The position numbers and the translations under genes were made by a program. From assembly GCA_021820975.1 (NCBI GenBank), contig JAKADA010000023.1, forward strand, positions 1-33,975: DNA of 33,975 nt, given 5' to 3'. The notes under the pieces are model-generated. The model did no database searches. It was given only the letters and a program-made list of their open reading frames with translations, and was not told the origin of the DNA. The first letter of the stretch is position 1. Every line of letters begins with the position of its first letter. Positions 18,265 through 20,464 of the stretch are shown here, one piece after another. The stretch comes from Bacillota bacterium (GTDB lineage: Bacteria; Bacillota; Bacilli; Alicyclobacillales; SLC66).

Positions 18265-18975
18265 TTACTCATGATCAGGCATATCGCGCAGAAATTGCGC
18301 AAAGTCCAATAATTGTTGCCTATACAAAACAATTTGCCGCTCGGCTCCTGTCGAGTTCCTCAAACAAACACTATCATACAAAGTTCGATGCATTGCTACC
18401 AATACTTGTGAAAAATCTGATTCTTTTGCCAGTAAATGATACACACTGACAAGAGGTTGGTACAAAACCCGTAAAAGGTTAGCAGCAATCACATTGCCCG
18501 ATGCATCTGCCAAAGCCAAATGAAAAGCACGCTCTGCTTCTGTGAGTATGGCACTATCGGGATATCCTGTTTCCATAGCAAACAAAGCCTCAGCGAGTTT
18601 TGCGCAATGCGCTTCTGTTCGCCTTAGTGCAGCTGCCGGAGCAAGCCCTGACTCCAACCACAAAGCAATTTCAAGAAGCCCTTTAACGTCGGATGTCCCT
18701 ACAAGTAGTGCCGCGTGCATAGGACGTAAAATGGTCTCGGGGGAAAACAAACGGACATACGTTCCATCACCTTGGCGTAACTCAAGTAATCCCGATCCGA
18801 TCAGCAAACTACATGCTTCACGTATCACGGTCCGAGAAACTTGAAAAAGCGCGGCGAGTTCGGCTAAAGTCGGCAAACGCTGACCCGGCAACCACTCGCC
18901 GCGCATGACGGCAGCCTCAATTTGTGCCGCTACCTCAAGGTATAGTGTCTTTCCTGTGCTAGGCACTCTTCCCAT
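18265..18975 (-). CDS. GntR-family (FadR/FCD-type) transcriptional regulator
   Basis: This 236-residue regulator has an N-terminal winged helix-turn-helix (about 8-72: LYLEVAAQIEAAVMRGEWLPGQRLPTL, then LAALFQVSRTVIREA) and a helical FCD ligand-binding domain (about 95-225), with the AERAFHLALADASGN motif and a later MHRTLYD histidine that form the usual metal-linked effector site. FadR-type members mostly respond to organic acids or sugar acids. The ATG at 18975 has a GGATGG nine bases upstream. It lies 31 bases after the selenoprotein-like gene and 15 before a small membrane protein gene, within a seven-gene run. No obvious catabolic target lies adjacent. Confidence 0.93.
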   Translation of the reverse strand: MGRVPSTGKTLYLEVAAQIEAAVMRGEWLPGQRLPTLAELAALFQVSRTVIREACSLLIGSGLLELRQGDGTYVRLFSPETILRPMHAALLVGTSDVKGLLEIALWLESGLAPAAALRRTEAHCAKLAEALFAMETGYPDSAILTEAERAFHLALADASGNVIAANLLRVLYQPLVSVYHLLAKESDFSQVLVAMHRTLYDSVCLRNSTGAERQIVLYRQQLLDFAQFLRDMPDHE

Positions 18976-19006: not shown

Positions 19007-19300
19007 TCAACAACAATCTGAATCCAACTCAGGACCTGTGACATGAAAACTATCATAGGTTTCATTGTAGTGAATAGAGACTTGCCCTTGTACAACTTGC
19101 AAAGTAAATGGATCAAAAATTAGCGGAACATCCTGTACTGTAAATACTCGGTCACGCGCAGATTGCTCATCCAGAGCAATGGTAAAACGAACTCCACCTC
19201 ACCCAGGCGATGCTACAATACGAATTCGCAACTTTTCATCCTGTTCTTGTTTGAGGATCTCTGCGAGACGCACCGCACCTGGCTGATCCATTTCTATCAT
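19007..19300 (-). CDS. HesB/IscA-like selenoprotein read through an in-frame TGA (CC/Se-motif type)
   Basis: Reading through one TGA (19199-19201) gives a 97-residue protein with Sec at residue 34. It has the IscA/HesB pattern: LRIRIVASPG-U-GGVRFTIALDE, then RVF, PLIFDP, VVQGQVSIHY, and a C-terminal DSDCC. The TGA falls where E. coli IscA has its first Fe-S ligand (Cys35), and the terminal Cys pair matches IscA's C-terminal CGC. A SECIS-like hairpin lies downstream (19162-19180). From memory this resembles families annotated as HesB-like or CC/Se-motif selenoproteins. The ATG at 19300 is chosen with GGTGG eight bases upstream; a GTG at 19312 (GGGAGG upstream) would add four residues. It starts about 27 bases after the mutY stop. 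It probably binds metal or does thiol/selenol redox chemistry. The alternative is a nonsense-mutated pseudogene. Confidence 0.85.
19162..19180 (-). promoter_or_regulatory. Candidate bacterial SECIS element
   Basis: On the minus strand ATTGCTC-TGGAT-GAGCAAT forms a perfect 7-bp stem with a five-base loop. The loop begins 25 bases after the in-frame TGA, and its second base is G. Both fit the published bacterial SECIS pattern as I recall it: apical loop about 16-37 bases from UGA, with a G in the first two loop positions. It would recruit SelB to insert selenocysteine. Confidence 0.75.
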
Positions 19301-19327
19301 CAAGTCTTCCACCGATTACCATCCTCC

Positions 19328-20404
19328 CTAAAAGCTTATGAACTCTTGCATCATTCTATTAAATATCGTGCCAAATGTCATGGAACTACGCTCATTTGGT
19401 GACACGAATCGACAATCACTCGCACATTCATCTGATGACACACAGATTTCATGCAATTGCATATGCCATTTCACATGTGAAAACGCATGCTCATATTCTC
19501 CTAAATATACTACAGGACGGTCTATCTTAATTGAAAAAGCCATCATAGCATCATGATAAATGGACTCTTCATCCACTATAGAAGTTCCTTCACATGGAAG
19601 ATTTGGCAATTCCCACATTCTACCTAATAGTCCCTTCTTTGGACGTTGCCGCACTAAGATGCGATCGTCATTGTGAATCAAAAAAGCGTGATAAAACAAA
19701 GTGGGCGTTGCCTTTTTGGGCTTTTTCACAGGGTACCGATCCTGCGTGGCAGATACGTTTGCACAACACATGGCATGAATCGGACAAGACTCGCATTTAG
19801 GTCTTGATCGCGTACATATAGTTGCACCAAGATCCATAACAGCCTGATTGAATTGCCCTGCGTAACCAGGCGGTAGTATCTCCTGAACCATTTTTGTAAC
19901 AATGCGTTTAGCATTTGCCGATGCAACATCTTCGTTTACACAGTATACCCGTGAAAAAACGCGCATGGCATTACCATCTACTGCTACTGTATCCTTACCA
20001 TACGCGATCGAAAGAACCGCTCCCGCCGTATAGTCTCCCACTCCAGGTAACAAACGAAACGATGTAAATTCCGAAGGAACACTACCGCCGTACGTTTCAT
20101 CTACTTCACGAACAGCTTCATGAAGCCTTCGAACCCGTGAGTAATACCCCAAACCTTCCCAATATTTGACCACTTCGTCATCTGTAGCCTGCGACAAGCT
20201 ATGAATATCGGGAAAGCGAGTAATAAAACGCTTAAAATAAGGAATTACCGTTTCTACCCTTGTTTGCTGTAACATGACTTCAGATACCCAAATTTTATAG
20301 GGATCTGTTGTCTCCCGCCAAGGAAGTTGTCGACTTTTTGCAGCGTAATATTGTAGCAAAGCTTGTGCTATCTCGTGCAATAACTCACCATCCCACGTGA
20401 TCAT
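19328..20404 (-). CDS. mutY: A/G-specific adenine glycosylase MutY
   Basis: This 358-residue repair enzyme removes adenine paired with 8-oxoguanine. The catalytic Glu42 lies in SEVMLQQTRV, the helix-hairpin-helix is LPGVGDYTAGAV, and Asp143 lies in AVDGNAMRV. The 4Fe-4S ligands are Cys197, 204, 207 and 213 in the C-x6-C-x2-C-x5-C arrangement. The C-terminal third is a NUDIX-like domain that recognises 8-oxoG, with PKKGLLGRMWELPNLP. The ATG at 20404 follows GAGG closely; an upstream in-frame codon would run through the inverted repeat. It heads the seven-gene run and is followed at once by the selenoprotein-like gene. Identification is firm. Confidence 0.96.
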   Translation of the reverse strand: MITWDGELLHEIAQALLQYYAAKSRQLPWRETTDPYKIWVSEVMLQQTRVETVIPYFKRFITRFPDIHSLSQATDDEVVKYWEGLGYYSRVRRLHEAVREVDETYGGSVPSEFTSFRLLPGVGDYTAGAVLSIAYGKDTVAVDGNAMRVFSRVYCVNEDVASANAKRIVTKMVQEILPPGYAGQFNQAVMDLGATICTRSRPKCESCPIHAMCCANVSATQDRYPVKKPKKATPTLFYHAFLIHNDDRILVRQRPKKGLLGRMWELPNLPCEGTSIVDEESIYHDAMMAFSIKIDRPVVYLGEYEHAFSHVKWHMQLHEICVSSDECASDCRFVSPNERSSMTFGTIFNRMMQEFISF

Positions 20405-20415
20405 TTGCCTCACTC

Positions 20416-20464
20416 TTGCAAGTTTACCATAGCAAACTTGCAATGGAATACATCGGCGTATTCC
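20416..20464. promoter_or_regulatory. Two adjacent perfect inverted repeats between mutY and a divergent small gene
   Basis: The first is TTGCAAGTTT-ACCATAGC-AAACTTGCAA (20416-20443), a perfect 10-bp repeat with an 8-base spacer. The second is GGAATAC-ATCGGC-GTATTCC (20445-20464), a perfect 7-bp repeat with a 6-base spacer. The first lies 12 bases upstream of the mutY start. Two operators for dimeric repressors, or RNA hairpins in the mutY leader, would both fit. Confidence 0.5.

Follow-up and report, generated by a model that had tools for sequence, protein, structure and literature searches.

The window, by which we mean the whole stretch of DNA that was analysed, comprises 33,975 nucleotides of contig JAKADA010000023.1 (assembly GCA_021820975.1, a Bacillota bacterium), and its source genome is a draft of 84 contigs with 92% completeness. 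Between mutY and a gene for a GntR-family regulator, and on the same strand as both, lies a short frame interrupted by a single TGA. The features of the locus are as follows.

19328..20443, minus strand: mutY, encoding an A/G adenine glycosylase with the Fe-S motif C-x6-C-x2-C-x5-C; it ends 15 nt upstream of the start codon of the next gene
19323..19329, minus strand: probable ribosome-binding site AGGGAGG, 10 nt before the GTG
19007..19312, minus strand: predicted HesB-like selenoprotein gene, 101 codons plus the stop TGA at 19007-19009
19310-19312, minus strand: start codon GTG, giving a product of 101 residues
19199..19201, minus strand: internal TGA at residue 38, predicted to encode selenocysteine; it falls in the IscA Cys35 column
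19163..19179, minus strand: putative SECIS upper stem-loop UUGCUC-UGGAU-GAGCAA, the loop starting 25 nt after the TGA
19010..19015, minus strand: codons of the terminal Cys100-Cys101; of these two, the kin conserve just the final one
18265..18975, minus strand: GntR-family regulator, 31 nt downstream of the HesB-like gene

Translation of the minus strand gave VEDLMIEMDQPGAVRLAEILKQEQDEKLRIRIVASPG-U-GGVRFTIALDEQSARDRVFTVQDVPLIFDPFTLQVVQGQVSIHYNETYDSFHVTGPELDSDCC-stop, where U stands for the TGA at 19199-19201 and the final TGA occupies 19007-19009. A preliminary description of this DNA had reported a frame broken only by the former TGA, without naming the strand, and a product of 97-101 residues; the translation agrees on the frame, assigns it to the minus strand and, from the GTG, yields 101 residues. 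When the source genome was searched with the Pfam profile PF01521, the only match was at this locus, with one TGA inside it (E = 1.2e-4; 23.4 bits, cut-off 26.3). The protein with Cys typed in for Sec scored 28.7 bits, above the gathering score of 26.3. An AlphaFold2 model (mean pLDDT 91.8; residue 101, 49) matched PDB structures of IscA, HI1723, SufA, AQ_1857 and DsrR, of which the first three were the best, and on this model the protein has the HesB/IscA (A-type) fold. DsrR of Allochromatium (PDB 2k4z), which has an A-type-like fold, gave a TM-score of 0.76 over the query, the highest among the matches listed; it differs from the window protein in having no Sec. DsrR is not known to carry clusters. 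Profile alignments to 1r94, 1s98, 2apn and 1nwb set Sec38 against the first ligand Cys of IscA, HI1723 and AQ_1857, and thereby confirm the earlier placement of the TGA in the IscA Cys35 column.

The interrupted frame is widely kept. Of the 18 genomes of the family, 15 have a single in-frame TGA at the same place and three have no match for the gene; the same TGA, with no further internal stop, is common to genomes from nine genera. The random stops and frameshifts that would have marked a decaying gene were thus not seen in these relatives. Among 101 relatives there were 25 stop-bearing matches, each with exactly one TGA and no TAA or TAG. In all 17 sequences that we laid out (15 from the family and two from other families of the class), the TGA lies within PG-U-GG, and their terminal stops differ, being TGA, TAA or TAG. 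A class-wide search returned TAA or TAG inside three rows (G578, G077 and G069); since the frames of G578 and G077 end near the C-terminus, the match there probably ran past the true stop. Homologues with Cys at the TGA position, which the preliminary description had suggested looking for, were found in a single family of the class, f22, in the three genomes G078, G097 and G500; a fourth genome of f22, G512, has the Sec form. The SelB search covered two of these Cys genomes, G078 and G097, and neither is among the 50 SelB-positive genomes of the 101. Among 398 sampled genomes of the phylum, 28 match the set A1 at E <= 1e-8, the source genome at 136.7 bits and the next at 48.4. A search of genome_contigs with the Cys version of the protein gave 54 stretches that fitted a pattern, none of which was confirmed, probably because a back-translated Cys excludes TGA.

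The genome also carries the machinery that decoding would need. The preliminary description had suggested looking for the sel genes, and all of them are present: selA and selD are adjacent on contig C69, which also holds the tRNA-Sec gene (selC; 61.4 bits, TCA anticodon), and selB is on contig C16. SelD itself is predicted to be a selenoprotein, as its gene (L080:6016-7020, contig C69 of the source genome) has an in-frame TGA, EKSG-U-GCKIGPGDL, at the first residue of the UxxK motif. Across the 101 genomes searched, SelB was found in all 23 that have a TGA-bearing HesB-like gene, the source genome included, and no such gene was found in the 51 genomes without SelB (Fisher p = 3.4e-9, kinship ignored). 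The same held within family f2, where the gene occurs in 4 of 12 SelB genomes and in 0 of 29 without SelB (p = 0.005, kinship again ignored).

Just downstream of the TGA, inside the coding region, is a candidate SECIS hairpin with the loop UGGAU; it has seven base pairs in the fold, six of which were tested for covariation, and its 25-nt distance from the TGA falls inside the published spacing of 16-37 nt. The 48-nt region, which also holds another hairpin, folds at -13.4 kcal/mol as a whole; this is not unusual for a single sequence (z = -0.97; 32 of 200 shuffles were as good), and the hairpin therefore rests on comparison. Rfam returned nothing in the window at the gathering threshold. The comparison was made on 32 sequences that a protein search had found in the class, leaving out L284 and L164 (which have the same letters as L270 and L278, respectively) and the more distant TGA frames L059, L066, L067, L070, L260-L263, L280 and L281. 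In this set 97.9% of the cells of the six stem pairs are paired, and three pairs show changes on both sides, in 20 cells, against 0-5 cells when the alignment was slid. The counts of paired cells and of double-changed cells, and the covariation score, were each reached by none of 500 shuffles; the remaining two of the five measures were unremarkable, the number of double-changed pairs being reached in 58 and the pair types in 224 of 500. The hairpin appears in the minimum-energy fold of 15 of the 17 sequences, L012 and L017 being the exceptions. In the 15 family sequences the codons beneath it (the ALDE stretch) are nearly fixed (GCT 15, CTG 15, GAG 15), and for the two Gly codons after the TGA all four forms are used.

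These results support the earlier proposal that the TGA is decoded as selenocysteine, through the sel genes, the TGA kept in relatives, the Cys forms and the covarying hairpin. We therefore consider it highly probable, from sequence comparison, that the gene encodes a selenoprotein of the HesB/IscA fold; this judgement covers identity and decoding, function being a separate matter. UGA codon 38 would be read as Sec by SelB and tRNA-Sec, owing to the hairpin just downstream, and the terminal UGA would act as a stop. Alternatively, a dead gene or an ordinary Cys gene might have acquired the TGA through a nonsense mutation or a sequencing read error; the frame is short and the genome a draft. However, nine genera share it with no other internal stop, and codon use and pairing point to selection on both RNA and protein; the conserved TGA and the covarying hairpin in relatives speak so strongly against a pseudogene or sequencing error that we reject it as exceedingly improbable. 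A TGA inside a frame could also reflect a lineage in which UGA is read as something other than Sec, whether recoded, for example as Trp, or simply read through. Yet TGA serves as a normal stop here: it terminates this gene and, of 10 long ORFs examined nearby, 3 more; relatives have Cys at the position, and the SECIS hairpin and sel genes are present. We have likewise rejected general recoding of UGA, which we judge very improbable.

As a kind, HesB-like selenoproteins are not new, publications on them going back to 2005-2006, and the window protein is a divergent branch of this kind. The literature lists 11 HesB-like selenoproteins (PMC1794560), names HesB among the known selenoproteins (PMC1242214) and gives the motif of TIGR01911 (HesB_rel_seleno) as UxGP (Table 1, PMC13188914). 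An example of the TIGR01911 kind is the HesB-like selenoprotein of Methanococcus maripaludis, which is reported to have been recognised through mutagenesis together with 75Se labelling; disrupting its gene did not impair nitrogen fixation, and in 2024 the function of the protein was described as not clear (PMC11097638). TIGR01911 proteins resemble the window protein in having a HesB fold with Sec at the first A-type Cys. They differ in motif: the window has UGGV, and the residue after UGG is V in 11, M in three and I in one of the 15 family sequences, UGGP occurring in 3 of 28 kin. The window protein scored 26.4 bits against TIGR01911 (cut-off 66.35) and 37.1 bits against NF038090 (IscA_HesB_Se; cut-off 85), a model named nowhere in the PMC open-access literature searched. 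All 16 members of A1 and all 52 of A4 matched NF038090 at E <= 0.01; judging by E-values, the 15 relatives in A1 would also lie far below both NCBI models. With such scores, the entire branch may remain without a name and have its genes truncated by gene finders.

A DNA pattern combining the TGA and the SECIS element, made from the window gene and its kin, occurred in at least 116 stretches of genome_contigs, against about 0.5 expected by rough arithmetic. All 81 places in the 80 loci read from among these were HesB-like by profile, 80 with UGGP and one with UGGA; as they were picked by the letters of the hairpin core, their pair counts are no test of the hairpin. In 77 of 79 rows of these genes, the final six residues include a Cys; the genes span Bacillota, Thermodesulfobacteriota, Myxococcota, Gemmatimonadota and others. 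In a tree of 136 rows, which has few columns and long branches, the window protein fell among its family's own 15 rows (96/80), within a 39-row set (99/91) made up of the 28 kin, three Cys forms and eight others. It thus groups with kin of its class, in a set that contains a few UGGP rows and stands apart from 12 canonical carriers and from the genome_contigs rows except L164. The 28 kin, a grouping of our own (15 of the family and 13 from five further families in its class), are not firmly supported as a clade: they require two changes on the tree and come out together in 25% of bootstrap trees.

Two further sets of TGA-bearing frames were observed. The longest end branch of the tree belongs to L066 (G064:C6), whose HesB-like frame is highly divergent; it reads UGFT and, as displayed, lacks a terminal Cys. 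Additionally, seven genomes of family f170 each have two different TGA-bearing HesB-like genes and one stop-free gene (L266-L270, L274-L277, L283 and L284, of which about nine were read).

The preliminary description had paired the Sec with a terminal Cys pair, taken as the two further ligands of IscA, so that a selenol would face two thiols. This part did not hold. Among the 28 kin only the window protein and L057 end in CC; 27 have Cys as their very last residue, the one Cys that is conserved, the exception being L273, and 21 have just one Cys besides the Sec. The terminal Cys is missing in one of the three Cys forms, L279. A-type carriers are defined by three ligand cysteines, of which the second and third belong to a motif in the C-terminal tail (PMC7144353), and this CGC motif is absent from all 28 kin; it was seen in at least 6 of 12 canonical A-type rows, which were trimmed. 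Compared with IscA, SufA and ErpA, the window protein would share the fold and the first ligand column, but has Sec for Cys, no C-terminal CGC and a single conserved terminal Cys. As judged from the alignments, the conserved pair is Sec38 with one terminal Cys.

The gaps of 15 and 31 nt, and the AGGGAGG 10 nt before the GTG, suggest that mutY, the HesB-like gene and the GntR gene probably form one operon. In the family, mutY is the nearest upstream gene at all 13 loci that have upstream sequence; two further loci start at a contig edge and, for one of these two (G003), another contig has mutY beside the first part of the gene. Kin from outside the family contributed 13 loci, and there mutY is the closest gene in six, second in two and absent in five. 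The Fe-S motif is kept in 21 of 21 MutY proteins adjoining or second from the gene. A membrane protein that we take, by eye, for the BI-1 type and the GntR gene often follow the HesB-like gene. This arrangement makes it attractive to suppose that the protein serves MutY, as a co-transcribed factor for insertion, repair or redox control of its [4Fe-4S] cluster. The sister family f2 weakens the idea, however: in all 14 loci read (the best 14 of the 39 genomes with a match, out of 41), mutY is followed by BI-1 without a HesB gene. Within the family, too, G009 (83% complete) has an intact mutY-to-BI-1 interval without the HesB gene (L298, G009:C35), with GntR kept and SelB present, and among the UGGP relatives mutY was found within up to two neighbours on each side in 0 of 81 places. 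The HesB-like gene therefore sits in an older gene order, which makes its link to MutY weak evidence for function. The two papers listed in the PMC open-access library as containing both mutY and HesB concern cancer and the cell cycle. We think a role specific to MutY improbable.

The absence of CGC also bears on a possible role as a classical A-type Fe-S carrier of the SufA or ErpA type, with Sec merely replacing one of three ligands. Such a role would suit the fold, the profile relation to IscA and ErpA, and the fact that this is the sole PF01521 match in its genome; a stop-free A-type gene was not found in 9 of the 18 family genomes, four of them at least 90% complete (G000, the source genome; G001; G006; and G007), and in family f14 a carrier with a CGC tail has a TGA at this very Cys. 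Gaps in the drafts may explain the missing canonical gene, since congeners of G006 have one. Against this role stand the loss of CGC in every one of the kin, the single Cys besides Sec in most of them, and the separate canonical A-type gene in the other nine family genomes. We regard a classical carrier as unlikely, if somewhat less so than a service to MutY; a selenol/thiol pair, acting in redox chemistry or binding metal as a dimer, would fit better than a standard three-ligand Fe-S carrier.

In either form of the selenol/thiol pair, Sec38 would stand in for the first ligand Cys of A-type proteins and act together with the single conserved C-terminal Cys. Our first choice, held tentatively and at somewhat under even chances, is a redox pair that would form an Se-S bond reversibly and probably serve Fe-S or thiol homeostasis. 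It is slightly favoured because Sec is usually kept for redox work. The next choice, plausible though less likely, is a site for a metal or an Fe-S cluster between two protomers, built from two Sec and two Cys. Included in the latter is its carrier form, in which a dimer would hold an Fe-S cluster or other metal via the two Sec and the two C-terminal Cys and so be a naturally Se-ligated carrier; taken jointly with the three-ligand TGA carriers of f14 as a second case, this is possible but doubtful.

The f14 genes deserve separate mention. In three of four genomes of that family, a canonical A-type carrier that keeps its CGCGSSF tail has TGA as the codon of its first ligand position, followed downstream by GGCAC-UGGAUC-GUGCC (L059/L315, G070:C32; G496; L317, G508). 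G496 (L316 and L319) has a Cys copy as well, and G520 (L318) has TGC in place of TGA and one stem base changed. Minimum-energy folding gives this hairpin for G496 and G508 and not for G070. The f14 protein would be an Fe-S carrier with three ligands, one of them Sec.

For the window gene and its kin, Sec, Cys and absent states occur in related genomes, often in a fixed neighbourhood, so that the role of selenium in this protein is open to direct test.
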